Assembly (NCBI GenBank): GCA_030692565.1
Contig: JAUYAO010000006.1
Span: 1-64,000, forward strand
Source of the DNA: Nitrospira sp.
GTDB taxonomy: Bacteria; Nitrospirota; Nitrospiria; Nitrospirales; Nitrospiraceae
Direction: 5' to 3'
Length of the DNA: 64,000 nt
Both the position numbers and the translations under genes were made by a program. This document shows, one piece after another, positions 4,777 through 57,505 of the stretch (the stretch's first letter is position 1; each line of letters starts with the position of its first letter). The notes beneath the pieces were generated by a model. It was not told where the DNA came from and did not search any database. It saw nothing but the letters and a program-made list of their open reading frames with translations.

Positions 4777-5865
4777 TCATTGGCGCGAAATCAGATGCAC
4801 GGAACCGGCTTTGAATGCCGCTCGGACCGGTGCTCCGACAGTCAATCCCAGCTCTGTCAGCGCCGATCGCGTAATGACTGCGACGAGCGGAAACCCGCAT
4901 TCGATCGTGACCCGCGCCAGAGCTCCGAGCGAGGCAATGGCACCCACGGTTCCCTGGAGATGATTCCGCGCACTGGTGAGCCCGGCGTCCGCCGGTTCGA
5001 GGGTCACATCCTCCGCCCTGATGCAGACGAATACGTCGGAGCTGACATTCTCGGCAGCCACCGCCGTGAGAGAAATTTCCCCCACTCGCACCGTCGCCAA
5101 CCCTTCACAGGCATTGACCAGTGTGCCCTGCACGACGGTTTCAACACCGACCACTCTCGCAACATCCGCATTGGCCGGACGGCTGAACACCTCCTGAGGC
5201 GTGCCCACTTGCAGAATCGTCCCCTCGTGCATTACCGCCATGACATCGCCCAGCGTCAGCGCTTCGGCCCAATCGTGCGTGACAATAATTGAAGGAAGCG
5301 CCAATTGCTTCAGCAACCCCCTGAGCTCCCCACGCAGTTGCGCGCGAGTCGGCGCATCTAACGCGGACAGGGGCTCATCCAACAGCAACAACTGCGGTCG
5401 AGGCGCCACGGCGCGAGCCAGCGCCACGCGCTGCTGCTGTCCGCCGGACAATTCGCGCGGCCTGGCTTCCTCCAATCCAGTCAGATGAAACAGCTCCACC
5501 ATTTCCTGCACACGCTTCGTTCGTTCGACAGGCGTAAGATCTCCCAATCCATAGGCAATGTTGCCGGCAACCGAATAATTGGGAAACAGCGCATAGTCCT
5601 GCGCCATGTAACCGATATGCCGGTCCTGCGGCGATACTTTGACGCGCGAACCCGTATCCAGCCAGGTTCTTGAGACAAACTGTATCGTCCCTTCTTCCGG
5701 CCACTCCAGGCCCGCAATCGAACGCAAAATCGTCGTCTTGCCGGACCCGGACGGCCCAAACAGGATCAACACCGTCGCGGACTCAACCGGATAGCGGAAA
5801 CTGGCACGAATAGACGTTCGCCCGGGAAAGGTCTTCGTCACCTCGACGATTATTTCTGCGGCCAT
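4777..5865 (-). CDS. modC: Molybdate ABC transporter ATP-binding protein
   Basis: A 362-aa ABC ATPase that powers molybdate (or tungstate) import at the inner membrane. Walker A is GPSGSGKTT near residue 36, the Q-loop follows (YMAQDY), the signature is LSGGQQQR, and Walker B is LLLLDEPLSALD with a following His switch (IIVTHDWAEA). The C-terminal 130 residues match the MOP/TOBE oxyanion-binding domain typical of ModC (for example VCIRAEDVTL and the ending AAFKAGSVHLI). Length is normal for ModC. The start overlaps the end of modB by 16 bp. It is the last gene of the leftward operon. Confidence 0.9.
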   Translation of the reverse strand: MAAEIIVEVTKTFPGRTSIRASFRYPVESATVLILFGPSGSGKTTILRSIAGLEWPEEGTIQFVSRTWLDTGSRVKVSPQDRHIGYMAQDYALFPNYSVAGNIAYGLGDLTPVERTKRVQEMVELFHLTGLEEARPRELSGGQQQRVALARAVAPRPQLLLLDEPLSALDAPTRAQLRGELRGLLKQLALPSIIVTHDWAEALTLGDVMAVMHEGTILQVGTPQEVFSRPANADVARVVGVETVVQGTLVNACEGLATVRVGEISLTAVAAENVSSDVFVCIRAEDVTLEPADAGLTSARNHLQGTVGAIASLGALARVTIECGFPLVAVITRSALTELGLTVGAPVRAAFKAGSVHLISRQ

Positions 5866-6524
5866 ACCGCCCAGACCTTTCGATTCATGGCATAGACCAA
5901 CAACAGGACGAGATAGGAAATCACGAGGAGAAACGCGGCAGTCTTCGCCGCTCCGGCATAGTTCAGCGCCTGCACCTCATCATAGATATCGATCGAGACG
6001 GTACGCGTCACCCCTTCGATATTGCCGCCCACCATCAACACCACCCCGAACTCTCCCAACGTATGGGCAAAACTCAAGACGGCGCCGGTAATAAGCCCCG
6101 CTGTCGACAACGGCAGAATGAGCTTGAAGAACGTCCTCACCTTTGACAGCCCCAGGGTCCACGAGGCTTCGATCAATTTCCGATCGACCTGTTCGAACGC
6201 GGTGGCAAACGGCTGGACGGCAAACGGGAGGCTGTACAAGATCGACGCGAGGAGGAGACCTTCAAATGTGAATGGCAACGGGTGGCCGACAAGGTCTGCA
6301 TAGAACCGGCCGACGGGACTATGGGGACCGATGGCCACGAGGAGGTAAAACCCCAGCACGGTCGGCGGCAGAACCAGCGGCAGCGCGACGATCGATTCAA
6401 CGACAAATTTCCATCGCCAGGCTGAATAGGCCAGCCAATAGGCAATCGGTAATCCGATCACCAGCAACGCGCCAGCCGTCAGGCTCGCCAATTTGAAGGT
6501 GACCCAGATGGCGATCCAGTTCAT
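5850..6524 (-). CDS. modB: Molybdate ABC transporter permease
   Basis: A 224-aa inner-membrane permease with about five transmembrane segments and the BPD_transp_1 EAA loop (EASWTLGLSKVRTFFKLILPLS). It also has the ModB-type stretch ALPLVLPPTVLGFYLL and the FGVVLMVGGNIEG region. The start MNWIAIWVTF at 6524 gives the usual ModB length; an in-frame ATG at 6632 would add an unrelated hydrophilic leader and overlap the preceding lipoprotein gene. It is followed by overlapping modC. Confidence 0.9.
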   Translation of the reverse strand: MNWIAIWVTFKLASLTAGALLVIGLPIAYWLAYSAWRWKFVVESIVALPLVLPPTVLGFYLLVAIGPHSPVGRFYADLVGHPLPFTFEGLLLASILYSLPFAVQPFATAFEQVDRKLIEASWTLGLSKVRTFFKLILPLSTAGLITGAVLSFAHTLGEFGVVLMVGGNIEGVTRTVSIDIYDEVQALNYAGAAKTAAFLLVISYLVLLLVYAMNRKVWAVWPQK

Positions 6525-6537
6525 CTGAGGACAAGTC

Positions 6538-6867
6538 CTACTTGCATATAAACTGCATCCCCCACCGCCGGCCGGTCGCTTCTCCCTCTTGCCCTTCCAC
6601 GCTGGACATGCTGCCGTACCCCTGCACTTCACCTTCCTTCAGGACGACATAACCCGACGGACACTTCTTCTCCATCACCTTCAATGCGCCCTTCCGATGA
6701 GGGGACCCCATCGGCCCGCCGCGCTCTTCTTTGAAGAGGTAGGTCACCACGCCGCTCGTCGCCGTCTCTTTGACCATCGTGACCGCATCGGAACATCCGG
6801 CGATCGCGCACAGCAACGCGACAACCACCGCCGCAGTGACCGCATTAGTTCGGCAACAGAAATCCAT
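6538..6867 (-). CDS. Small lipoprotein inserted between modA and modB
   Basis: A 109-aa protein with a signal peptide ending in the lipobox AIAGC (Cys at residue 25), so it is probably a lipoprotein. The mature part has no recognised domain; two later cysteines (KKCPSGY and QFICK) could form a disulfide. It overlaps the modA end by 23 bp and ends 13 bp before modB, so it is embedded in the molybdate operon. An accessory role in oxyanion capture or transporter assembly is possible but unproven. Confidence 0.7.
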   Translation of the reverse strand: MDFCCRTNAVTAAVVVALLCAIAGCSDAVTMVKETATSGVVTYLFKEERGGPMGSPHRKGALKVMEKKCPSGYVVLKEGEVQGYGSMSSVEGQEGEATGRRWGMQFICK

Positions 6868-7606
6868 ACCGCCTCATAATGTCCTGCCCTTGCGGGCCTT
6901 TCAAGAATTCCAAAAAGCGCCGGGCCGCTTCCTGATTCCTGGATTGTTTCAAAATCACCGCCCCTTGCTCCAACGGAGGATAGGCCTCGACTGGAATCTC
7001 CCAATAGGCCCCTTTGCCGCTCATGGCCGGAGACAGCGCCAGAGACAGTGCGATGATCCCGATCTCACAGGCGCCGGATTCAATGAACTGCGCCGCCTGT
7101 GAAATATTCTCTCCCAGAATCAGCTTCTCTCTCACCGATTCATAGACGCGGGACGATTCCATCGCCGCCACCGCAGCACGACCATACGGGGCGTGCTTGG
7201 GATTGGCAATCGCAATCTTCTTGATGCCGGGCTCCCGCAGGACATCCAGTCCCTTGGACACATCCAGGCGCGACGCGGTACCGGCCCACAACACGATCCG
7301 TCCTACCGCATATCGATAGAGCGATCCGGACACGGTGAGCCCGGCTTCCTCCAACTTCCTGGGGTATCCGATATCAGCAGAGAAATAGAGGTCGAACGGC
7401 GCACCGTTCTGAATCTGCGCATAAAAATTCCCCGACGAGCCTAAGGAGAGTTTCACCTGATGCCCGGCAATCTTTTCATATTCAGCCACGAGATCTTTCA
7501 TCGCAAAGTTCAAATCGGACGCCGCCGCAATCGTGATCTCCTCCGCGAACACACCGTTGACGCCGGCCCCGATGCACAGGATGACAGTCAAAATGAAACG
7601 AATCAT
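6845..7606 (-). CDS. modA: Molybdate-binding periplasmic protein
   Basis: A 253-aa class II solute-binding protein. It has an N-terminal signal peptide (ending GVFAEE) followed by the ModA hallmark ITIAAASDLNFAMKDL and, later, LSLGSSGNFYAQIQNGAPFDLYFSAD, which carries the Ser residues that hold the oxyanion. The start at 7606 is set by AGGGGGATC upstream and by the signal peptide. It delivers molybdate or tungstate to ModBC encoded downstream. It lies 11 bp from the porin gene. Confidence 0.9.
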   Translation of the reverse strand: MIRFILTVILCIGAGVNGVFAEEITIAAASDLNFAMKDLVAEYEKIAGHQVKLSLGSSGNFYAQIQNGAPFDLYFSADIGYPRKLEEAGLTVSGSLYRYAVGRIVLWAGTASRLDVSKGLDVLREPGIKKIAIANPKHAPYGRAAVAAMESSRVYESVREKLILGENISQAAQFIESGACEIGIIALSLALSPAMSGKGAYWEIPVEAYPPLEQGAVILKQSRNQEAARRFLEFLKGPQGQDIMRRYGFLLPN

Positions 7607-7617
7607 GACAGATCCCC

Positions 7618-9333
7618 CTAGAAAAATATTTGATACTGAACTCGAATCGCGTTCTCGATCAAAGTCCTGGCATTGAGGTCCAACGGCACCGTTCCGGACG
7701 GGAACGTCGCCCCGACCGCCGGCAACGGTGCGCTGCGCCCGATTGCAAATCCCCCCTGCCCCATCGCAATATTGCTGTACGTCAGCATGATCTGGTGATC
7801 GTAAGTCCCGCTGAGGAACCAGTTCAACGACACATTGACTTCCTTGATGAGATCTCCGCCCGACCTGGTATCCGGATCCCACCAGGCATAGCGGGCGGCC
7901 ACTTCGACCTTCCGCGGAATCAGGTAGTAGCCGGATTGCACATACCAACCTGTCGCATTGCCGAACTGGCCGGGAGCGAAGACCGTGCAAGGCCCTCCCA
8001 CAACGGCCGTCTGCATACAGGGCAGCTCCTTGCTATGCCTGGTCACGTTTCTAAACCAGTATTCGGCCTGCAACGAGAAGCCACGGTACTTGAATGCAGA
8101 GTCGAGCGTCCAGGTGGAAAAGTCGACGACTCCCTGCCCCAACATGCGCCCGTTCCCGTGTTGGGCAAGCGCACGGCGAACGGTCAGATTCGCCAGGTCA
8201 ATGCCGACAAAGGCATTATTGGTGCTGGTATCGATCGCCGGATTGTAGGCATACCCGCCACCGATGGCCATTTGAGGCGTTTCAGAATAGGCCAGATCGC
8301 CTTCCCCATACCCGGCCCGTCCCATGAGATTCGCCTGCAATCTCGCCACATACATCAGCTGATTCACGCTGGTCCGGAGATTTCCATTGAGATTACGCTG
8401 ATTAGGCTGACATCCGCCCGGGGACGGAAAGGGATTCCCGCCGGTTTGACCGCCAGGACAACCGACTGTCGGCTCCTCGCTGGAAAACTGCACGAAACGG
8501 TTCACTAGCGGGCCGGAGCCGTTAAACACCCCGAAATAATAATTGACCGGATAGATCTCTTCATCGTTCATGATCGTGATGCCGACATCACGCCGGTTCA
8601 GACCGCTGGCGGTAAAGGCTTCCATCACCTGCGCCCGGCTCGCAAACTGCATCGAGGCGGTCGAATTGATCTGCGCCCGGTTGAAATACACTTTGTATTG
8701 GCCCACCTGCACATTGAGCCAAGGAATGTGGGTACTCGTCACGTTGAGATCCAGCATTGTGATTGCCCCAGGCGCCTGGGCATTTTCAGCCGTTTCACCG
8801 GCTAACTGCATGTAGTACTTCAAATCGGGATTAAAGAGATGCCCCATGAAATAAATCCGCGCCGTTCTCAAATTGAACGTTGACGATTCATTAATTGATC
8901 GGCTCGCCCGATAGTCGCCGAACACTCCCAAGAGCTCAGGGTAATTTTTTGAGTCTCCGGACTCCCGATAGGCATCGTTTCTGTAGCGCTGCGTGAATCT
9001 GGTGGCAAACCGGCCGCGGATCTTGAGAAAGAAGTCGTTATCGTTCATCGAAAAGTTGAACCCGCGGTCGTACCAGGCCTTGAAGCTGGGCTGCAGCAGA
9101 TAGGTCCGCTCCTGCGATTCCCTGACGACATTGTCGTACTCTTCCTGCGTGATCGTGCCCTGCTTGACGGCCCGCTGCAGCAGCAGCCTGGTGGCCGGAT
9201 CCATGCTTTCGACAAACACATAGCGCCCGTCCTTTTCGACGAGCTTGCCGGCATCCGCCGCCCAAGCCGGGCTCATACACAGACCCAACAGCACCATATA
9301 CCCGGCAACGAACCATCGAGCGCGATGAGACAT
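7618..9333 (-). CDS. Outer-membrane porin of the oxyanion uptake operon
   Basis: A 571-aa outer-membrane beta-barrel of the phosphate-selective porin O/P-like type. It has a signal peptide ending SPAWAAD, a short N-terminal segment (KLVEKDGRYVFVES then TQEEYDNVV), many alternating aromatic strands such as FFLKIRGRFATRFTQRYRN, and a terminal Phe (VQYQIFF) as expected for BAM recognition. The start at 9333 has GAGGAGATC upstream. It is clearly paralogous to the porin at 12725. The operon places it as the outer-membrane route for the anion taken up by ModABC. Confidence 0.82.
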   Translation of the reverse strand: MSHRARWFVAGYMVLLGLCMSPAWAADAGKLVEKDGRYVFVESMDPATRLLLQRAVKQGTITQEEYDNVVRESQERTYLLQPSFKAWYDRGFNFSMNDNDFFLKIRGRFATRFTQRYRNDAYRESGDSKNYPELLGVFGDYRASRSINESSTFNLRTARIYFMGHLFNPDLKYYMQLAGETAENAQAPGAITMLDLNVTSTHIPWLNVQVGQYKVYFNRAQINSTASMQFASRAQVMEAFTASGLNRRDVGITIMNDEEIYPVNYYFGVFNGSGPLVNRFVQFSSEEPTVGCPGGQTGGNPFPSPGGCQPNQRNLNGNLRTSVNQLMYVARLQANLMGRAGYGEGDLAYSETPQMAIGGGYAYNPAIDTSTNNAFVGIDLANLTVRRALAQHGNGRMLGQGVVDFSTWTLDSAFKYRGFSLQAEYWFRNVTRHSKELPCMQTAVVGGPCTVFAPGQFGNATGWYVQSGYYLIPRKVEVAARYAWWDPDTRSGGDLIKEVNVSLNWFLSGTYDHQIMLTYSNIAMGQGGFAIGRSAPLPAVGATFPSGTVPLDLNARTLIENAIRVQYQIFF

Positions 9334-9405
9334 GGCGATGATCTCCTCAAGCAACACGAAATGAAGATAGAGAATGAAAGACGGCGACAACGATGAAAAT
9401 AATGG

Positions 9406-21688: not shown

Positions 21689-22069
21689 ATGTCTCAGCCA
21701 ACCGGACCGTCTAAGCGCATCATCGACCTGCGGAAACATCAGCGCATTGTCACGCCGTCGAGCGCGCTTTTTTCCTTCAGACAGCTTATCGTGCCGGCCC
21801 AACTCCTGGACGATGTCGAAGGTGAAGGCGCCCTGATCGATCTTTCACTCGGAGGATGCCGTCTTCTCAGCGACACCCCGCTCGCCCTTGGTCAGGAATA
21901 TCACCTGATTCTGCAGATCTCCGTTGAACGCCCGCCCATTCCGGTCGAAGCCGCGGTCGTCCGCTGGACTGAAGACAATACCTACGGTCTCAAGTTCACC
22001 TCGATCGACACGCACGACGAATCTCTGCTCCGGGATCTCCTCATCGAGATCCGCCGGCCCATCAGCTAA
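21689..22069 (+). CDS. PilZ-domain protein
   Basis: A 126-aa single PilZ domain, a c-di-GMP receptor fold. The two binding motifs are present: RKHQR near residue 14 and DLSLGGC near 50. The start at 21689 has GGGAG upstream; earlier in-frame ATGs at 21638 and 21662 lack one. Its partner is not evident. Three further PilZ domains occur in this window, at 57107 and in the cellulose synthase at 42562. Confidence 0.8.
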   Translation: MSQPTGPSKRIIDLRKHQRIVTPSSALFSFRQLIVPAQLLDDVEGEGALIDLSLGGCRLLSDTPLALGQEYHLILQISVERPPIPVEAAVVRWTEDNTYGLKFTSIDTHDESLLRDLLIEIRRPIS

Positions 22070-34566: not shown

Positions 34567-34970
34567 TGGCTGACTCCCTCGTTCAGTCGACTGCTCACGA
34601 TCTCAATTTACCGCCTCGCCAAACAAGAGGCAAGGACGGTGCCGAGGGTGCCACTCTCAGCCAGCGAGAATTCCTCCCGGCATAGCGCACTTCTGCCTGC
34701 TAGTTGGGGACCATCCCGACCCGGCGATGTTCTCCCGGCTCCGTCATCACTGATTGTCCCGGCCACCAGCAGAGCCCTCTTTTGTACAGTGATCGCCCCG
34801 GCCCTCCCCCGCTTCACCGCAATTCCAAAGGCTTCAAGGTGAACTGATTCAGTCCTCTCAGGCATATCCCTTGCGGTGTACCAGGCCGGCAACTGACGGA
34901 CGCCCATATTGCATCGCCTCGACAAATAAGGCACCCTTCCCCAACCTCATCGTTGCAAGAGGATCACCGT
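34567..34970. other. Divergent intergenic region before the metalloprotease gene
   Basis: It must carry the promoters of the fibronectin-III lipoprotein and protease genes. Possible reading frames here have unlikely composition and no ribosome-binding sites, so no gene is called. Confidence 0.4.
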
Positions 34971-36383
34971 ATGGCCCCCGCACAGTCGACACTGGTCCCC
35001 ACACAAGTCCGTCGTCTGTGCGGACTTCTCTTGTCAGGCCTTCTCTTTTTCACCGCCGCGCTTGGAACAACGGGTCTCGCAGAAAGCGACGGATCGATTC
35101 CGGCTCTGGCCCCGACCCCGCTATTCACAACGGCCCCTCCGCAGCGGTCCGCACCGTTGGCCCAGGCAAGCACCCCGCGCAAAGCCAGGGGACGCTGGGT
35201 TCGGGATCAGCGTTCCGTCAACATCACCGCAGACGCGCTCCGTGCCCTCAATCCAATCAGTCCGGCACAACACACCGAATTCACGATCGACCTTTTTTCC
35301 GCCGGCACACAACTAGCCGATCTCAGCCCGGGAAGCGACCCGCAACGAACGCTCCACCACCAAACATGGACGGGACGGTTGAAGCAGGATCAGGACAGCG
35401 ATGTCACGCTTGTCATGAAGGGCGCGGCTGTCGCGGGAACGATCCGAAAGGGGCGCACAATCTATGAGATCAAGCCCAGCGCTGACGGCACCCATGACGT
35501 GACAGAAATCGACAGCGAGTTGCTTCCTAGCGACCACCATCCGGTCCCCGTGAGTCCTGACGAATCGGCAGCGGGAGATGTGGCTACCGGCCTGGCCGCG
35601 CCCATACTTCCCTTCGCCGCAGCCGCAGATAGCAGCACATTGATCGATCTCCTGGCGGTCTACACCACAACCGCGAAGAACGCGAATGGTGGACAAAACG
35701 GCATTGAAGCCCTGATTGCCCTCGGCATTTCTCTGGCGAACACCGCCTTCACCAACAGTCAGATCAACACCCAATTCCGGCTCGTCCATACCGCCGAAAT
35801 CGCGTATCCCGAATCCGGCAACTACAACACGGATTTGAGTCGCCTGCGAAATGCGACGGATGGATTCCTGGATGACGTGCATACGCTGCGGAACACCCAC
35901 AAGGCGGATCTGGTCACGCTGATTGCAGACAACATCGGAGATGCCTGCGGAGTCGCCTACGTCATGAGTTCTGTCAGCCCCAGCTTTGCAAGTTCGGCGT
36001 TCAGTGTGGTCGAAGATGCCTGCATCTCCGGCTACACTCTCGCCCATGAGCTCGGCCACAATATGGGGTCTATGCATGATCGGGCCGAGGGAGGGACCGG
36101 CGCCTACCCCTACTCCTTCGGGCACAAAGAAGCAGGCAAGTTTCGGACGATCATGGCCTATCCCTGCAGTCCCTCCTGTCCGCGTATCAATCATTTCTCA
36201 AACCCCAATGTCAGCTATCAAGGAAGCTGGGTCACCGGCGTAGACCACAACACGAGCCCTGCCACCTCGGCGGACAACGCCAGAGCCTTTACCAATGCCT
36301 TGAGCACCGTGGCGAATTTCCGCAACAGCGGCGATACGACCGCTCCCCCGGCCCCCGCCAATTTCCGGATCATCAGCCCGTAG
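34971..36383 (+). CDS. Secreted reprolysin-like zinc metalloprotease (metzincin)
   Basis: A 470-aa secreted protease. A signal peptide (LCGLLLSGLLFFTAALG) is followed by a propeptide of about 150 residues (SDVTLVMKGAAVAGTI region) and a catalytic domain starting near residue 220 (LIDLLAVYTTTAKN). The zinc site is HELGHNMGSMHD near 360-371, the HExxHxxGxxHD metzincin motif, and the Met-turn is TIMAYP. The start at 34971 has AAGAGGATC; a TTG lies 18 bp upstream. The C terminus (PPAPANFRIISP) may be the start of a lost fibronectin-III module. It is followed by a gene resembling its propeptide. Confidence 0.87.
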   Translation: MAPAQSTLVPTQVRRLCGLLLSGLLFFTAALGTTGLAESDGSIPALAPTPLFTTAPPQRSAPLAQASTPRKARGRWVRDQRSVNITADALRALNPISPAQHTEFTIDLFSAGTQLADLSPGSDPQRTLHHQTWTGRLKQDQDSDVTLVMKGAAVAGTIRKGRTIYEIKPSADGTHDVTEIDSELLPSDHHPVPVSPDESAAGDVATGLAAPILPFAAAADSSTLIDLLAVYTTTAKNANGGQNGIEALIALGISLANTAFTNSQINTQFRLVHTAEIAYPESGNYNTDLSRLRNATDGFLDDVHTLRNTHKADLVTLIADNIGDACGVAYVMSSVSPSFASSAFSVVEDACISGYTLAHELGHNMGSMHDRAEGGTGAYPYSFGHKEAGKFRTIMAYPCSPSCPRINHFSNPNVSYQGSWVTGVDHNTSPATSADNARAFTNALSTVANFRNSGDTTAPPAPANFRIISP

Positions 36384-40961: not shown

Positions 40962-42548
40962 CTAGTAAAACGTGTAGACCAACAGCCCATTCACCTGGAT
41001 CCGCATATAAATACTGGCGATCTGCGTATAATCCGCCATCACCTTGAAGAGCCAGGGCTTGGAAATATGTTTCGTATAGACCATGTGCGCATCACCGCCG
41101 ACGCGGAACACGGCTGACTTCGTCGCCTCATCGATATATTGGAGAGCGGGACCGGCGGCAACATAGAGTTCGTCCTTGTTCTCCATACTATAGGTCGCCG
41201 CCAGCCGGGGGATCTGATTGATGAACACGTCCGGGCTGAAATAGCCGCCCGCGAACGGCTCCCGCTGGCTCGGCTGGAGTCCTCCCTGATTCTCCCCATA
41301 GTGAGTGAGATAAAACAGATACTCGCCGGCGATCTCCCAGTTGTCCTGCTGCCAGAGCGGCAACGACAATTTTGTATCCACTCCGACCTGATCGTTCGAC
41401 TTCAGCTGCTCCGCCGTCACCCATCCGACAAAGGGCGTCACGGTCACATGCAACGCGGCCACGTCGAACGCCACTTCACTATAGAACTGCGTCGACCGCG
41501 CCAAGCCCACCAGCTGGCCGGCACTGCGCGACCCGGCCAAGGCCGCGAACGAATCGTACCGGAACTCCCGCTTGACCCCGGGACGAATGGAAAATGATCG
41601 TCCATCGTAGGCATATTCGAACTTATAGGCCATCCCGTCGCCGCGCGGCGCGCCATGATATTCCAGCACCGCATCGAATCGATTCGACGGATTGAACCGC
41701 ACTTGATTGCCCAGGGAGAGATAGGCGCCGGAGCGATTCTCCGACGAGTTCCAGAAATGCTCGGCCCCGACCTCCACTTTGGTCGTCGTAAACGGCGTGA
41801 TATCGAATTTTCCGCGTGTGCCCATCCGGAACCCGTACAACTCATAGGGCTTCTCCGGCTGCGCCAGCACCCCCATCACCCCTTCGACGGCCGGCTCCCG
41901 TCCCTTCGACATGTCCTGACGGAGCGCCGTCAGATCGCCCGATTCATGCTTCGTCTGCTGCCGCGCCAGATTCGCGTGATACAAGGCCAGATCATTCTGC
42001 CCCAGCCAGGCATAGGCTTTGGCCAGACCCCGGTGGGCCTCGGCATTGCGCGGCTGCGTCTCCAGCACCTTGTCGTACTGTGCCACGGCTTCCTGACTGG
42101 TTTCTTTGTGGCTGGCCAGATGTGTCGCATACCGGAGCCGCAGCGCCGGATCGTTTGTTCGCTTCAAGCCCATCCGGTAATACTTCAGCATGTCTTTCTC
42201 GCGATAGGCGTAGCGCGACCATTCCAACGCCCGCGCTTGGGCAAACGCGATGTCGGCATCGTCGTCCCAACGGGCGAGATACCGGTCGAACTGCTCGATG
42301 GCCTTGTCCTTCAACCCCTGCTTTTCGTAGGCGACGCCCAGGCTCCGCATGGCTTCACGGTTGCCCGGATCACGCTCGACGACTTTTTCGAAGGCTTCGA
42401 TCGCCGCCTTGTAGTTTTCAATCTCCAGATTCGAACGCCCCCGGGACATATACCAGGACTCCACAAAATCATCGGCCCCCGCGGGAACCGCCGCCCAGCA
42501 CGAGATGAACAGGAGCACACTCAGGGCACACGACCGGCGACACCACAT
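40962..42548 (-). CDS. TPR/beta-barrel outer-membrane export protein of the cellulose locus
   Basis: A 528-aa protein. A signal peptide (ending AGADD) is followed by about six TPR repeats (NYKAAIEAFEKVVERDPGNREAMRSLGVAY and others) in residues 30-230. A C-terminal beta-barrel of about 260 residues has alternating aromatic strands and a terminal aromatic residue (GLLVYTFY). This is the BcsC/PgaA-like layout, though much shorter than BcsC. The start at 42548 has AAGGTG, 13 bp after the synthase stop. It probably passes the polysaccharide through the outer membrane. Confidence 0.75.
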   Translation of the reverse strand: MWCRRSCALSVLLFISCWAAVPAGADDFVESWYMSRGRSNLEIENYKAAIEAFEKVVERDPGNREAMRSLGVAYEKQGLKDKAIEQFDRYLARWDDDADIAFAQARALEWSRYAYREKDMLKYYRMGLKRTNDPALRLRYATHLASHKETSQEAVAQYDKVLETQPRNAEAHRGLAKAYAWLGQNDLALYHANLARQQTKHESGDLTALRQDMSKGREPAVEGVMGVLAQPEKPYELYGFRMGTRGKFDITPFTTTKVEVGAEHFWNSSENRSGAYLSLGNQVRFNPSNRFDAVLEYHGAPRGDGMAYKFEYAYDGRSFSIRPGVKREFRYDSFAALAGSRSAGQLVGLARSTQFYSEVAFDVAALHVTVTPFVGWVTAEQLKSNDQVGVDTKLSLPLWQQDNWEIAGEYLFYLTHYGENQGGLQPSQREPFAGGYFSPDVFINQIPRLAATYSMENKDELYVAAGPALQYIDEATKSAVFRVGGDAHMVYTKHISKPWLFKVMADYTQIASIYMRIQVNGLLVYTFY

Positions 42549-42561
42549 GCCTGACACCTTT

Positions 42562-45500
42562 CTATTGCTGAGAGATCGAATCATCGGACAAAATTGTAGG
42601 CCGTATTCCGGCCCGCCAGATCCAGAGCCATCGTCGTCGCACATACAGGGGCTCATACCGCCCCTTCTCCTCACCCATCAACCAGGGACCAGCGGACTCA
42701 GCGGGTCGCCCGAACAGCAGCACGCCCATGCCACGGGAGGAACGATCGCGCAGGAGCCCCCACTGCCTGGCGTGACCGATCTGAATCCGCACGGGAACCA
42801 GACACCGACGGCGCGGAATCCGGCGCCGCCTGGTGACCGGCGCCTTCACTGACCGGCAAAAGCCCGCAAACAAATGACCGGCCATCAGCAACGGACTGCG
42901 CACACGCGCGTCGTGCGCCCGCTCCCAGGTCGCCGGATCGCCGAACAGGTTTATCACAAGCCACTGCCGCTGCGCTGCCTGCAGATCCAGAAACTCCGCC
43001 CCGCAGCGAATCCGCTTTCCGGGCAGAATCTCGTGATACAGCACCCTCGCCCGGCAGGTCATCGGCGTCCGTCCCTGCAGCGTTACGTCAAACGTGTCCG
43101 GAATCGGATCTGCAGAGGTCGTGAGAAACGAGAGCCCCGACAGACTCAGGTCATCCGTAACCGCCTGGCACTGAAACCCCTGAGCCTCCACCCCACAGTC
43201 GAACTGCCGGCCGACTCGCTCTTCCCCCCGCCGCTGCGGCCGCTCCCACGCCATGCTCAATCCGATGAGCAGCGTCACCAGATTCACCCCGGCCCAACTG
43301 AGGTTGAAGAAGTAGGCGTCCTTTTCGATTTCGAAAAACCAGAATTCCCACAGACCCTTGGCGATCGCCCCCATGGTGATCACCGTGGCGGCCAACAGAC
43401 TCAACGACGACCGCCAATCGAATGTCCGGTGGGCCGACGTCAACCCCTTCGGCGTCACCTTGAACCCCAGCCGCTTCGGCAGAAACAGATCGAACATGGA
43501 ACGAAACAGCGGGAACGCGACCGTCGCCTCGTAGGTGGATGACCAGAGCAACCGCGGCCATCCCGGCAACAGCACCGAAGACAGCAACGGCAACATCAAC
43601 ATAAACGGCAACACATAGGCGACCAGGATCGACACATCGGACAAGATCGGGTGGAGATGAAACAAGAGAAAATAGAGCGGCGTAATCCAGAATACGACGC
43701 GGGCCAGGGGAAAGAGGAAATAATATAAGGAGGCGAAGTAGCCCACCCGATGCCGCAGAGACAGCCCCCGGCAGAAGAGCGGGTTGTCCTTCAGGAAGAT
43801 CTGCAGGCACCCCAGCATCCAGCGCCGGCGCTGCACGATATACGACGAGAGGTTCTCCGCCGTCAGCCCCACCGCCAGATCTTTATCGACGAAGGCGGAT
43901 TTCCATCCCTTGGCATGCAGATGCTGGCTGGTATGGATATCCTCGGTAATGCTCATCAGATTGAAGCCGTTCACCTCCTGAATCGCGGTCCGCCGGAACA
44001 CAGCCCCGCTGCCGACGAAGAACGCTCCCCCCCAATGATGCCGCCGTCCCTGAATGGCATGATTGAAGAGATCCTGCTCATTGGGAATCCGGACTCCGGT
44101 ACCGAGGGCGCGCTGAAAAATGTCCTGATTGTAGAAATGGTGCGGCGTCTGCACGAATCCCATGCGCGGATCGGCAAAGTGCGGCACCGTCTCGGCTAGA
44201 AACGTCGAGACCGGGATATGATCGGTATCAAACACTACGATCAATTCGCCGTCCGTCTGAGTCAGGGCCTGGTTCAAATTGCCCGCCTTGGCATGTCGCC
44301 TCGGTCCTTGGAAATAGGTCGCCCCATACCGTTGCGCGAGAGCGCGCACGTCGTCACGATGGCCATCGTCCAGGACAAAGATCCGCTTCTTCCCATATGC
44401 AATCGCTTCGGCGCCGATCAAGGTCTTCTCAAGAATCTCGCAGGACTCGGAATAGATCGGGATCAAGATATCGACCGACGGTTGGAAGTCTGTCGCGACC
44501 GGAGGCGCGCTGGCTGCGGCTGATTTCCGGCCCACCCCGACTTGCACGAGCAGAAGAGCGACCGTCGAAAAGGCATAGAGTTCGGCACACCAGAGAGACA
44601 GACTGATGAACGGCCCGCCGGCCTCGACCCAATTCAGAGTCTCGTGCGCGCGCCAGTCGAGATACCGCACACAGAGCGCAAATCCACAGACCAGAAACGC
44701 CACCTTCAAGACCCAATGCCATCGCGCCAGGAGAAACAGGACCAGCGTGACCAGCACCAGCTCCCAGGCGAAATGCGCGGAGAATCCGGCCACATCAAAC
44801 GGGCGCAAGAAGGCAAAGTACTCGTCGTATCGCCGTACGTGATCCAGTTCGACGGCCCGATCGAACCACAGCCAGTTATGCAGATAATACGGCGTGCTCT
44901 TGCCGGCCAACGCATTGGCATGGAGCAGCGGAAGCTTCAGCTCGGACAACCGCCGGGCCAGTTCCGGCAGGTCCTGAGAGGCCAGCGCATGCACCGTCGC
45001 ATACAACGGCAGCCCTTCCAGCGTCGAACGAGGCTCGCCCGAAACCGTGTAGCGATCCACGAACTTTCCGCGCGCCTTCCACTCCACCCAAAAGACGCCC
45101 AGCATCTTCTCACGCAGCCCCGCTTCTGAACGGCCGAACCACTTGGCATCCAGCGCCACGCGCCAAAAAAGCGGGAACGCATCGTAGCTGAACTCCGCCG
45201 CCGGTCCGGCCTTGGGATGCGTCATGACCAACCGGCCGGACAACTTGTCGAGATAAATGAGTTCGGGCGGAAGCGAAACCTGTCGTTCATCGTAGAGCCA
45301 ATGTAAGACGGCGTAGGAACTCTCAATGAGCTTCCGCCAGTCGCGCTTGCGATCGACGGAGGCGAAGACTTCATAGGCATAGGGCGCGAGGTAGGCCACG
45401 TGGATCGTCGGATAGGCTTCATGCACCGCCCAGTTTCCCGCCGTGACATAGGAACCGGTGCTCAGATGCAGCACCTCCAGGTCCCAGATGGAAGCAAGAA

Positions 45501-45960
45501 TCGCGAGGGCCTCCTGCTCATACCGGGGAATATCGAACCGGCGCGACGCGAGAATAAGAGCCAGCGCAATATCCGTGTCGGCATCGGTCGCGGCATCCGG
45601 CGACAGAACCTTGCCCTTCCACTTCCAGGCAAAGAGCTTATCCGGTCGTACCTGCAGATACGCTTGCGTCCAGCGCCACACTTCGTCAAACGTGCGGCGA
45701 TCGTTCGACCAGACCGCCCGCAACATCGCATAGCCCTGGCCTTCGGACGTCGTGACGCCCTGTTCATCCAGGCTGATCACGCGCCCGTCGCGGATGTAGG
45801 CCTGCCGATAGAAGCTCCAGAGGGCGGACAGCTCGTCTTGTTGCCGGATCAACCGGTCGCTGGACGTGGTCGAGGGCTTTGCATCAGCCGTGAACCCGAG
45901 CGGGGATAGCAGACAGCACAGACAGAGCAAGACGATCGTGGTGAACCGATGGCAAAGCAT
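42562..45960 (-). CDS. GH8 endoglucanase-cellulose synthase-tandem PilZ fusion
   Basis: A 1132-aa membrane protein. After a signal peptide, residues about 30-370 form a glycoside hydrolase family 8 domain (BcsZ-like) with the proton donor in TSEGQGYAM (Glu73) and the acidic site DADTD (126-130). Transmembrane helices at about 385-470 lead to a BcsA-like GT2 domain: LDDG, FDTDH (about 576), TED and QRRRW (about 710). More transmembrane helices and a PilZ domain follow (RGEER...DDLSLSG, about 900-1000). A second, shorter PilZ-like domain ends the protein (RRIPRRR...DRSSRGMG, about 1045-1130). Joining BcsZ and BcsA in one chain is unusual, and no BcsB is nearby. Confidence 0.87.
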   Translation of the reverse strand: MLCHRFTTIVLLCLCCLLSPLGFTADAKPSTTSSDRLIRQQDELSALWSFYRQAYIRDGRVISLDEQGVTTSEGQGYAMLRAVWSNDRRTFDEVWRWTQAYLQVRPDKLFAWKWKGKVLSPDAATDADTDIALALILASRRFDIPRYEQEALAILASIWDLEVLHLSTGSYVTAGNWAVHEAYPTIHVAYLAPYAYEVFASVDRKRDWRKLIESSYAVLHWLYDERQVSLPPELIYLDKLSGRLVMTHPKAGPAAEFSYDAFPLFWRVALDAKWFGRSEAGLREKMLGVFWVEWKARGKFVDRYTVSGEPRSTLEGLPLYATVHALASQDLPELARRLSELKLPLLHANALAGKSTPYYLHNWLWFDRAVELDHVRRYDEYFAFLRPFDVAGFSAHFAWELVLVTLVLFLLARWHWVLKVAFLVCGFALCVRYLDWRAHETLNWVEAGGPFISLSLWCAELYAFSTVALLLVQVGVGRKSAAASAPPVATDFQPSVDILIPIYSESCEILEKTLIGAEAIAYGKKRIFVLDDGHRDDVRALAQRYGATYFQGPRRHAKAGNLNQALTQTDGELIVVFDTDHIPVSTFLAETVPHFADPRMGFVQTPHHFYNQDIFQRALGTGVRIPNEQDLFNHAIQGRRHHWGGAFFVGSGAVFRRTAIQEVNGFNLMSITEDIHTSQHLHAKGWKSAFVDKDLAVGLTAENLSSYIVQRRRWMLGCLQIFLKDNPLFCRGLSLRHRVGYFASLYYFLFPLARVVFWITPLYFLLFHLHPILSDVSILVAYVLPFMLMLPLLSSVLLPGWPRLLWSSTYEATVAFPLFRSMFDLFLPKRLGFKVTPKGLTSAHRTFDWRSSLSLLAATVITMGAIAKGLWEFWFFEIEKDAYFFNLSWAGVNLVTLLIGLSMAWERPQRRGEERVGRQFDCGVEAQGFQCQAVTDDLSLSGLSFLTTSADPIPDTFDVTLQGRTPMTCRARVLYHEILPGKRIRCGAEFLDLQAAQRQWLVINLFGDPATWERAHDARVRSPLLMAGHLFAGFCRSVKAPVTRRRRIPRRRCLVPVRIQIGHARQWGLLRDRSSRGMGVLLFGRPAESAGPWLMGEEKGRYEPLYVRRRWLWIWRAGIRPTILSDDSISQQ

Positions 45961-46107: not shown

Positions 46108-47064
46108 TCAGGACTCGATCCGGTGGCGGATCCTGTAGCGGCCGGAAAAGTGCTCCCCGGGAGCCAGCCGTTTCAAACCCCATTCAGGATGGTTGAAGGC
46201 ATCCGACGCGCAGGTCATCGGCTCGATGGCGAACGCGCGGCGCGGCGCATCGGAGATGGCATCGCCGGTATACACCACAATCGCGGAGAAGGAACGGTCC
46301 ATCGTCACATCAACCACCCGGCCGCTTGCGGCATGCCGAAGCGACGCCGTCGCCATCCCCTCCGCATCGCGAACGAGTTGCACGTAGCAATGATTAAACC
46401 GCTTCGTGCCGATCCGCCGGAAGTCGCGACAGTCCCACTCAGTGCCTGCTGCGGGAAGAATCGTTCCCGTCGGGGTGAGCTGGTCATTGAACTCCAGAAA
46501 GCCCGCGCCGGGAATTCTCGCCTCGGCTTCGTCAATCACTCCAGTGCCAACCGTGAAATAGGGATGAAAGCCGATCCCGACCGGCGCCGGTCGCGTCCCG
46601 GCATTCTGCACAACGAAGGAGCAGGACAATCCCTTGTCGTCCAAGCCATAGGTCACTTGAATCGCGAGTGAAAACGGATAGCCCTTGCGGCCGTATTGCT
46701 CGGCCTCCAGGCGAACAGCCAACACCACGCGGCTCCCCTCGGTACGAACCACCTGCCACGGCAGCGTCCGGACGAAACCGTGAATCGCATTCGGACCTTC
46801 TTTATCGTTCCGTTCCAGCTGAAACACTTCGCCGTCGAACGAATAGCGGCCCTCGGCGATGCGACCGGGGAACGGAATCAAGACATCCCCCTGCCCGCCC
46901 TTCTTCTGACTGCCTCCCGAATAACCCCAGACAATATCGACCTCGTTGCCGCCGGCTTCCACCAGGAAATACCGGCGTAAGGATGCGCCCCGGGGTGAGA
47001 CAACCGCCCGCTGGTTGCCGGAGGAAAGCATGATTTCTGTGTCGGGAGTCGTGGTCATCGTCAT
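46108..47064 (-). CDS. Aldose 1-epimerase-like protein
   Basis: A 318-aa galactose-mutarotase-fold protein. GDVLIPFPGRIAEGRYSF, NAIHGFVRTLPW (the catalytic His region), VGIGFHPYF and the C-terminal RAFAIEPMTCASDAFNHPE (the Glu region) match aldose 1-epimerases. The start at 47064 is chosen because a TATACT -10 box lies only 8 bp upstream, which would make the mRNA leaderless. It lies 147 bp upstream of the cellulose synthase on the same strand. Confidence 0.85.
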   Translation of the reverse strand: MTMTTTPDTEIMLSSGNQRAVVSPRGASLRRYFLVEAGGNEVDIVWGYSGGSQKKGGQGDVLIPFPGRIAEGRYSFDGEVFQLERNDKEGPNAIHGFVRTLPWQVVRTEGSRVVLAVRLEAEQYGRKGYPFSLAIQVTYGLDDKGLSCSFVVQNAGTRPAPVGIGFHPYFTVGTGVIDEAEARIPGAGFLEFNDQLTPTGTILPAAGTEWDCRDFRRIGTKRFNHCYVQLVRDAEGMATASLRHAASGRVVDVTMDRSFSAIVVYTGDAISDAPRRAFAIEPMTCASDAFNHPEWGLKRLAPGEHFSGRYRIRHRIES

Positions 47065-47221
47065 GGAACCGGAGTATAGCATTGAGACCGGGCGGGCTCG
47101 CACCGGAGTTCAATTTTTATGCAGGGGCTCCAGAAGAGTGAAAGACCATATTCCATTTGAGATCGACTACAGGCAAGATGAACCCACGCGTGTTATCGCA
47201 GGACATTGAGGAATCGCAGAG

Positions 47222-51932: not shown

Positions 51933-53567
51933 ATGAGCTCGACACCCGGTCTTAGCACCACCACACAGTTCCGCAACCTCCTCCTGTCCGACCAGCTGGA
52001 ATTCATCTGTGAAGCCCACAATGGCCTGAGCGCCAAGATCGTCCAGGAAGCCGGCTTTAAAGGCATCTGGGCCAGCGGCCTGTCGATCTCGGCCCAATTC
52101 GGCGTGCGCGACAACAACGAAGCGAGCTGGACTCAGGTGCTCGAAACCCTCGAGTTTATGTCCGACGCGACCACGATTCCGATTCTCCTCGACGGCGATA
52201 CCGGCTACGGCAATTTCAACAACATGCAGCGCCTCGTCCGCAAGCTGGAGCAGCGAAAAATCGCCGCAGTCTGCATCGAAGACAAACTTTTCCCCAAAAC
52301 GAATAGCTTCATCAAAGGCGACGCCCAACCCATGGCGGACATGCATGAGTTCTGCGGCAAGATCAAAGCCGGCAAAGACGCCCAGAGCGACCAGAACTTT
52401 TCCATCATCGCCCGGGTCGAAGCCTTCATCTGCGGCTGGGGGCTCGCCGAAGCGCTGCGCCGCGCCGAAGCCTATCGCCAGGCCGGTGCCGACGGCATCC
52501 TCATCCACAGCGCCCTGGCGGTGCCCGATGAAATCCTGGCGTTCAAGCAGGAATGGGGCAGTCGCTGCCCGGTCGTGATCGTCCCGACGAAATACTACGC
52601 CACCCCGACCGATGTGTTTCGCCAGCACAACTTCTCGATAGTGATCTGGGCCAACCATCTGCTGCGCAGCTCCGTCACGGCGATGCAGAAGACGGCGCGC
52701 ACGTTGAAGGAACAGGAACATCTCTTGTCCATCGAAGATAAAGTCGCGCCGGTGTCGGAAATTTTCCGGCTGCAAAACGCCGCTGAACTGCAGGAGGCGG
52801 AAGACCGCTATCTGCCCAAAGGCGCCGAAGATACTTGCGCCATCGTCCTGGCCGCCTCGCGCGGCAGCGAATTGGGCGAACTCACCGAACACCAGCCCAA
52901 GACGATGGTCAAAGTCCAGGGCGCGCCCATCCTCACCCGCATCGTCGACGCCTACAACGCCGTCGGCGTGAAAGACATCGTCGTCGTCCGAGGCTATAAA
53001 AAGGAGACCGTCAATCTGCCCAATCTGACCTACGTCGACAACGATGAGTATGCCGACACCGGCGAACTGTTCTCTCTCCTCAAGGCCCTGCAGTCGCGCA
53101 AGGGCCGCGCCCAACAGACCCTCATTTCTTACGGCGACGTGCTGTTTAATAAGTATATTCCCCAGTCCCTCTGCCAGGAATCTGATGACTGCGTGATCTT
53201 CCTCGACAGCAACTGGCGGGAGGAGACCAGCTATGCCCGGCTCGGCGGATTCGCCGAATGCACCATCCCCAATTCGCGGCGCGCCTTCAACGCCAAGGTC
53301 TATCTCAAGCAACTGGGCAATGAGATCCCCGAAGCCACCACCCACGGCGTCTGGATGGGCTTCCTCAAAGTCTCGCCGTCCGCCGCCGCACTCATCACCA
53401 CCGTCATCACGGAACTGCTCGCACGCCCCGGCAACCGCAAGGCCACAATTCCGCAACTGCTCCAGGAGCTGCTCACGCGTCAGCAACCCATCCGTGTCCT
53501 CTACACCGTCGGCCACTGGCTCGACATCAATAGTCTGGAAGATGTCGTGCAGGCGGGCGAGTTTTAA
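51933..53567 (+). CDS. aepX: Phosphoenolpyruvate mutase fused to a nucleotidyltransferase
   Basis: A 544-aa two-domain enzyme. Residues 1-300 are a PEP mutase, which makes phosphonopyruvate by forming the C-P bond; the key motifs are [13 protein letters not shown] (86-97) and [10 protein letters not shown] (116-125). Residues about 305-544 are an NTP-transferase-like domain ([26 protein letters not shown]) that in relatives adds CMP to 2-aminoethylphosphonate. Its [10 protein letters not shown] differs somewhat from the usual LAAGxGxRLG. AAGGAAGG precedes the ATG. No phosphonopyruvate decarboxylase or transaminase is adjacent. Confidence 0.9.
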
Positions 53568-57106: not shown

Positions 57107-57505
57107 TCAAACAGAGCCTACTGTCGAACTTCCCGGATCAAGCCATCCCGGGGATTCGCGTCGGCCTGAACGAACCTTCAGCAGATGAATGAGCTCGGTT
57201 CGCAGCCGGCGATTGAGCCGTTGCCTGGTCTCATCAGGCAGGCGGAGAAACTCTACACCGAACTGATGGCCCTCGACCCATTTGATCGTGCCGCACTCAA
57301 TGGTCAGCGCGTGGGCCTGATCCGGAAGCAGGATACTCACACGCACGTCATTGCCACAAAGGACCTCGCGGTCGCACAGGACCGAGCACCCCTGAAACGA
57401 CAGATTCGTCAGCAGCCCCTCGCCGACAAACGGCGCCCCGCCGAAGATGACCGGACAGTGGAGCGGATACCGGGGATAGGTCCGGCCATATGAAAGTGCA
57501 GCCAC
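57107..57505 (-). CDS. PilZ-domain protein
   Basis: A 132-aa PilZ domain with the c-di-GMP motifs RTYPRYPL (RxxxR) and NLSFQGC (D/NxSxxG), and the C-terminal strand KWVEGHQFGVEFLRL. The GTG at 57505 has GGAGG 5 nt upstream; a GTG at 57544 is a longer alternative. It lies 72 bp after the membrane-protein gene on the same strand. Its target is unknown; the cellulose synthase is a possible functional neighbour. Confidence 0.8.
   Translation of the reverse strand: MAALSYGRTYPRYPLHCPVIFGGAPFVGEGLLTNLSFQGCSVLCDREVLCGNDVRVSILLPDQAHALTIECGTIKWVEGHQFGVEFLRLPDETRQRLNRRLRTELIHLLKVRSGRRESPGWLDPGSSTVGSV

Follow-up and report, generated by a model that had tools for sequence, protein, structure and literature searches.

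The contig JAUYAO010000006.1 of Nitrospira sp. (phylum Nitrospirota; GenBank assembly GCA_030692565.1) was analysed over its first 64,000 nucleotides, hereafter the window. On the minus strand, at 42562..45960, it contains a gene in which an endoglucanase of glycoside hydrolase family 8 (GH8) is joined to a cellulose synthase-like protein of the BcsA type. The open reading frame is unbroken and encodes 1132 residues, arranged as a signal peptide, the GH8 domain, hydrophobic segments corresponding to transmembrane (TM) helices TM2-4 of BcsA, a glycosyltransferase family 2 (GT2) domain as in the BcsA core, the C-terminal TM helices and two PilZ domains (PilZ1 and PilZ2). Based on Pfam annotation, Glyco_hydro_8 (residues 47-292, E 1.6e-35), GT2 (494-716, E 7.8e-23) and PilZ (909-1002, E 1.8e-11) all scored above the curated cut-offs. 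An earlier note on this DNA had proposed that GH8, GT2, a full PilZ and a shorter second PilZ are contiguous in one chain of 1132 codons, and this was borne out by the reading frame, the Pfam and NCBIfam matches, full-length homologues and the PilZ2 comparisons given below. All features of the gene and of its downstream neighbour lie on the minus strand.

The GH8 domain occupies residues 36-375 (44836..45855) and was delimited by Pfam, structural matching, homologue columns and residue alignment to the structures 1cem, 1kwf and 1wzz. The catalytic acid E73 (in TSEGQ), D126/D128 and the base D260 were conserved in the alignment of 18 homologues, and E73 aligned with the glutamate that is replaced in 1kwf, a mutant structure of Clostridium CelA. 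Many further residues were invariant along the whole length of the domain. The GH8 part of the predicted model matched GH8 structures, including Escherichia coli BcsZ, with Z scores of 28-30. The closest sequence match was the Komagataeibacter cellulase CMCax (E 1e-23), an enzyme of a cellulose operon. In each of the 11 fusion-bearing genomes tested, the fused protein was the sole GH8.

The GT2 catalytic domain (residues 494-716, 43813..44481) contains DD (531-532), DTD (578-580), TED (672-674) and QRRRW (710-714). The C-terminal TM helices, located by hydropathy and alignments at 43246..43746, include the gating-loop motif FKVTPK (residues 833-838). These motifs are conserved in the homologues and agree with DD, DxD, TED, QxxRW and FxVTxK of BcsA. 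The protein thus combines the features of a BcsA-type synthase, namely the GT2 motifs, a multi-TM channel, the FxVTxK loop and a C-terminal PilZ with RxxxR and DxSxxG. Alignment of the GT2-PilZ half with solved BcsA structures extended over about 530-620 residues (E 1e-76 to 1e-87), and the NCBIfam cellulose synthase model TIGR03030 was matched over nearly its whole length by residues 395-1028 (E 2e-150).

PilZ1 (residues 909-1002, 42955..43236) has RGEER as its RxxxR motif and DLSLSG as its DxSxxG motif, and its fold matches the PilZ domain of BcsA. PilZ2 (residues 1043-1122, 42595..42834) includes RxxxR, DRSSRG (DxSxxG) and a closing RxG strand, and its match to Pfam PF07238 was weak (14.4 bits, E 0.05, against a gathering score of 22.5 bits). 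In 14 homologues, with identity down to 25%, the only invariant columns of this segment were both arginines of RxxxR, the serine and glycine of DxSxxG, and the arginine and glycine of RxG in the last strand; the first position of the [D/N]xSxxG motif was D or N in all 14. The best Protein Data Bank entry for the PilZ2 profile was the PilZ domain of Rhodobacter sphaeroides BcsA (E 0.009). When the profiles of the two trimmed domains were compared with hhalign, they aligned in register over their full lengths with a score of 25.0, and the best of 60 column-shuffled controls reached 15.5. PilZ2 was predicted to be a six-stranded barrel (block pLDDT, the per-residue model confidence, about 73-89), the tandem model being fairly confident in both barrels, and it matched the c-di-GMP-bound PilZ protein PA0012 (8u0i) with Z 10.0 and a root-mean-square deviation of 2.5 over 76 residues. 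A chance similarity was rejected on the grounds of the invariant columns, the profile match, the shuffle-controlled comparison and the fold match. The C-terminal segment therefore most likely folds as PilZ, with the ligand residues kept, as the earlier note had supposed. Two c-di-GMP sites could provide graded control, a further idea that has the motifs as its basis. It should be added that PilZ matches above the cut-off number 42 in the 4.2 Mb genome, which is many for a genome of this size; this count concerns, among other places, 21728-22045 (plus strand) and 57206-57484 (minus strand) of the window, and another frame, C33 (1425 codons), likewise contains two PilZ matches.

The gene directly downstream (40962..42548) starts 13 nt past the stop codon of the fusion. 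Based on domain matches of its homologues and on synteny, it is predicted to encode a reduced BcsC-like exporter of 528 residues, with tetratricopeptide repeats (TPRs) and a C-terminal beta-barrel, which is far shorter than the BcsC model (1157 positions). TPRs were found in all 12 homologues of this protein and BCSC_C in 11 of them (best E 6.6e-7). Of the loci that extend far enough, nearly all have a BcsC-like gene adjoining the fusion, with gaps of -4 to 58 nt in eleven homologous loci, and the two genes form an operon. No further gene was consistently found beside the fusion at the homologous loci. The upstream aldose epimerase gene (46108-47103) was considered as a member of the system and rejected, being adjacent in close relatives only.

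A scan of genome contigs recovered 21 related loci, with identities from 90-91% in near relatives down to 56%. At least 14 loci other than the one described here contain the same full-length frame (56-91% identity), one of them on the complete Nitrospira moscoviensis chromosome NZ_CP011801. A frameshift, named in the earlier note as a way in which the fusion could prove spurious, or an assembly artefact would fit two broken copies in metagenome-assembled genomes (MAGs): L012 (7890-11384) has an internal stop, and L022 (7806-10890) has lost about 170 residues and changes frame. However, the recurrence of an uninterrupted frame in so many loci, a complete genome among them, makes such an origin extremely improbable, and we rejected it; the fusion is genuine. 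The two broken copies themselves reflect either decay or assembly error.

Of the 59 Nitrospira species sampled, 10 have the fusion (one of them in a complete genome), as do four genomes from other Nitrospirota genera of the same family or class. Some others of the 59 have just a BcsA-like protein that is unfused and about 35% identical. Two more fusion loci came from MAGs labelled KSB1 and Myxococcaceae, both derived from one metagenome. Since the GC content of these two loci (50% and 70%) differs from that of the window (59%), transfer of the fusion is possible, with binning as a caveat.

Hydropathy and alignment place a signal peptide at residues 1-27 (45880..45960), with a putative AxA-type cleavage site (TADA|K), ahead of GH8. 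Three hydrophobic segments at residues 393-477 (44530..44784), recognized from hydropathy averaged over 18 homologues and from alignment to R. sphaeroides BcsA as the equivalents of TM2-4, stand between GH8 and GT2. The resulting odd number of membrane crossings would leave the two enzymes on opposite sides of the cytoplasmic membrane, with GH8 facing the periplasm and GT2 the cytoplasm. The earlier note had placed the hydrolase at the exit of the channel. The predicted topology agrees with tethering on the exit side, but a position at the channel mouth found no support, since the full-length AlphaFold model was poor (pLDDT 59.9; global confidence score pTM 0.35) and cannot place GH8 over the channel or serve as a test of topology.

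If the chain stays uncleaved, the ratio of GH8 to synthase is fixed at 1:1, as was also supposed. Post-translational cleavage into an ordinary separate BcsZ and BcsA might be imagined from the low-confidence stretch of the model at residues 351-389. Nevertheless, no cleavage motif was identified, FLRPFD and GF.AHF at the junction are conserved, and the relatives showed no split form of the gene, which makes cleavage very unlikely.

BcsB is the usual partner subunit of BcsA. A search with PF03170 did not detect it in the source genome or in any of the 59 Nitrospira genomes, and no fusion genome tested had a match above the cut-off; of 148 Nitrospirota genomes sampled, the same search was positive in 17, as it was in E. 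coli, the positive control. A weak match in one genome (G167, E 3.8e-4, below the cut-off) is probably not BcsB, because the same frame has a peptidase M1 match upstream. BcsB was undetected wherever the fusion was present, the fused GH8 would lie on the side of the membrane where the channel is otherwise capped by BcsB, and invariant residues run throughout the domain. GH8 might therefore be mainly structural, standing in for BcsB to guide the chain in the periplasm and to dock the BcsC-like protein, with hydrolysis secondary. We consider this unlikely. Every catalytic residue of GH8 is conserved, something that a purely structural role would not call for, and unfused BcsA without BcsB occurs in some genomes lacking any GH8, so that the loss of BcsB needs no GH8 substitute.

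A tree of 37 GT2 proteins united the fused proteins with full support, and the stem leading to them was long (1.35 changes per column). BcsB-linked BcsA lay outside this group, as did a third group, made up of unfused BcsA without BcsB. The basal relation of the three groups is open in this tree. Another of its long branches leads to BgsA, the enzyme that synthesizes mixed-linkage beta-glucan in Rhizobiales. Pfam found one PilZ stretch in each of ten BcsB-linked proteins and two in six of the seven unfused BcsB-less proteins. Thus, in this sample, tandem PilZ accompanies the absence of BcsB and not the presence of GH8, and a double switch does not depend on fusion to GH8. The lineages are shared, so this link is correlative and rests on few independent events.

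The neighbours of the unfused genes were also inspected. At L071 (genome G210, 4994-9091), an unfused BcsA with two PilZ stretches adjoins a BcsG-type phosphoethanolamine transferase (E 6e-143); BcsG modifies cellulose with phosphoethanolamine. A transferase of the same protein cluster was found at L074 and L075, and the BcsA of L074 (the same as L052) also has two PilZ stretches. The PF03170 search did not detect BcsB in the genomes of these three loci, and their systems possibly make phosphoethanolamine cellulose without it. At L077, an unfused BcsA-like gene is paired with a protein of about 230 residues (8679-9377) that is weakly BcsS-like (E 0.0044, below the cut-off), and a similar pairing of unfused Nitrospirota BcsA-like genes with a protein of about 230 residues was seen at L073, L076 and L078-L080. 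The BcsG and weakly BcsS-like neighbours support cellulose as a product of the wider group.

Based on the fusion itself, the conserved catalytic and ligand motifs, the two-gene operon and the lack of a detectable BcsB and of any other GH8, we suggest with moderate confidence that the protein is a c-di-GMP-gated, BcsB-independent synthase of the cellulose type, which carries its own trimming cellulase and passes the chain to a BcsC-like pore. The cytoplasmic GT2 domain would polymerize UDP-glucose into a beta-1,4-glucan (cellulose-type or a close beta-glucan) and thread it through the membrane channel, with binding of c-di-GMP to PilZ1 opening the gating loop, as in BcsA. PilZ2 may act as a second c-di-GMP site that adjusts or stabilizes the active state. 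As the chain emerges in the periplasm, the tethered GH8 would trim misdirected or jammed chains. A role of this kind, the clearing of jammed or stray chains, was proposed for the free BcsZ of E. coli, where export needs BcsZ activity and not its mere presence, unrelated cellulases can substitute for it and no direct contact between BcsZ and BcsC was found (PMC11379886). The product of the neighbouring gene, the reduced BcsC-like protein, would then guide the chain along its TPRs and through its barrel. The place of BcsB would be taken by the GH8 ectodomain, or BcsB may not be needed, and the hand-over of the chain would have to proceed without a BcsB docking site.

Several observations weigh against this proposal. 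The TIGR03030 score of 502 bits lies below the equivalog cut-off of 699.1 bits, which marks the protein as a BcsA-like homologue and no strict equivalog; taken together with the long branch of the fused clade, this means that specificity could have drifted. The GH8 family also includes lichenases, xylanases and chitosanases, and a beta-1,3-1,4-glucanase was among the GH8 fold matches (Z 30.5), level with the endoglucanases. The pSymB protein presumed to be BgsA (so called by position and similarity, not by annotation) had a GT2 score of 237 bits, inside the range of 199-303 bits of intact BcsB-linked BcsA, and an attempt to tell cellulose synthases from mixed-linkage synthases by this score failed, since the ranges overlap. 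The BcsC-like protein of the window scored 15.0 bits for BCSC_C (E 0.015), below the cut-off of 23.5 bits. In addition, a highly divergent analogue of BcsB may exist elsewhere in the genome, and the open-licence literature searched contained no report of cellulose from Nitrospira.

The low equivalog score, the long stem, the glucanase fold match, the GT2 score of the presumed BgsA and the undetected BcsB would all suit a different beta-glucan, for example, a mixed-linkage glucan, with GH8 as a matching lichenase-type hydrolase. We regard such a product as rather unlikely. The top GH8 sequence match comes from a cellulose operon, and the BcsC-like partner, as well as BcsG next to an unfused relative, indicates cellulose. 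For the proposed cellulose-type synthase, a more far-reaching version can be outlined, in which two proteins make up a BcsB-independent exporter, GH8 serves as both chain guide and trimmer in cis, the two c-di-GMP sites cooperate, and tandem PilZ compensates for the lack of BcsB in a broader lineage within the Nitrospirota. It is offered tentatively, as possible but doubtful.

Two other frames were noted in the window, both on the plus strand. Judging by sequence, a frame of 544 residues (51933-53567) appears to join a domain of the phosphoenolpyruvate mutase type to a nucleotidyltransferase domain, an arrangement known from phosphonate pathways, and another of 476 residues (34953-36383) contains the zinc-metalloprotease motif HELGHNMGSMHD.

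It is a long-standing puzzle why cellulose synthases are accompanied by a cellulase, hydrolysis being required for export. A natural BcsZ-BcsA fusion suggests that trimming takes place at the synthase, and it offers a single-chain object in which one point mutation can put this to the test. Furthermore, a protein with BcsA motifs and no detectable BcsB raises the question of what BcsB is needed for. Members of the genus Nitrospira, key nitrifiers (nitrite-oxidizing), live in flocs and biofilms, and a glucan system under c-di-GMP control would therefore be relevant to wastewater treatment.

Compared with known systems, the protein shares the GT2 motifs, the channel, the FxVTxK loop and a C-terminal PilZ with BcsA of R. 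sphaeroides (4hg6) and E. coli (7lby, 9fmv). Unlike BcsA, it has GH8 and a signal peptide replacing the N-terminal TM1 region, a second PilZ and no detectable BcsB. The system would work like Bcs, yet it departs from classical Bcs in two respects, the equivalog score and BcsB. BgsA is also BcsA-like in its GT2 domain, activated by c-di-GMP and in the same range of GT2 scores, but it has no GH8 fusion. The tandem PilZ model had as its top Foldseek matches the two-domain receptors MrkH, YcgR and PlzA; these, however, are soluble regulators outside any synthase, and their single domains match well, whereas the pair matches loosely. With BcsZ and CMCax, the GH8 enzymes of bcs operons, the fusion has the fold and the catalytic residues in common, but those enzymes are free in the periplasm, whereas GH8 is here covalently N-terminal to the synthase. 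The open-licence literature searched yielded no account of a GH8-BcsA fusion. Fusions of other pairs of cellulose-operon subunits are known, namely BcsAB and BcsZC (Zymomonas, Acidobacteria), and the accessible passages of these sources do not mention BcsZ-BcsA (PMC7112194, PMC9693552). The cyanobacterial type IV cellulose operons, consisting of XcsA, the HlyD-like XcsB and the endoglucanase XcsC, likewise combine a PilZ synthase with an endoglucanase in the absence of BcsB (PMC12430437). In them, however, these are separate proteins with a HlyD-like adaptor and a TolC-like pore, whereas in the Nitrospira system a single chain is paired with a TPR-barrel protein of the BcsC type.

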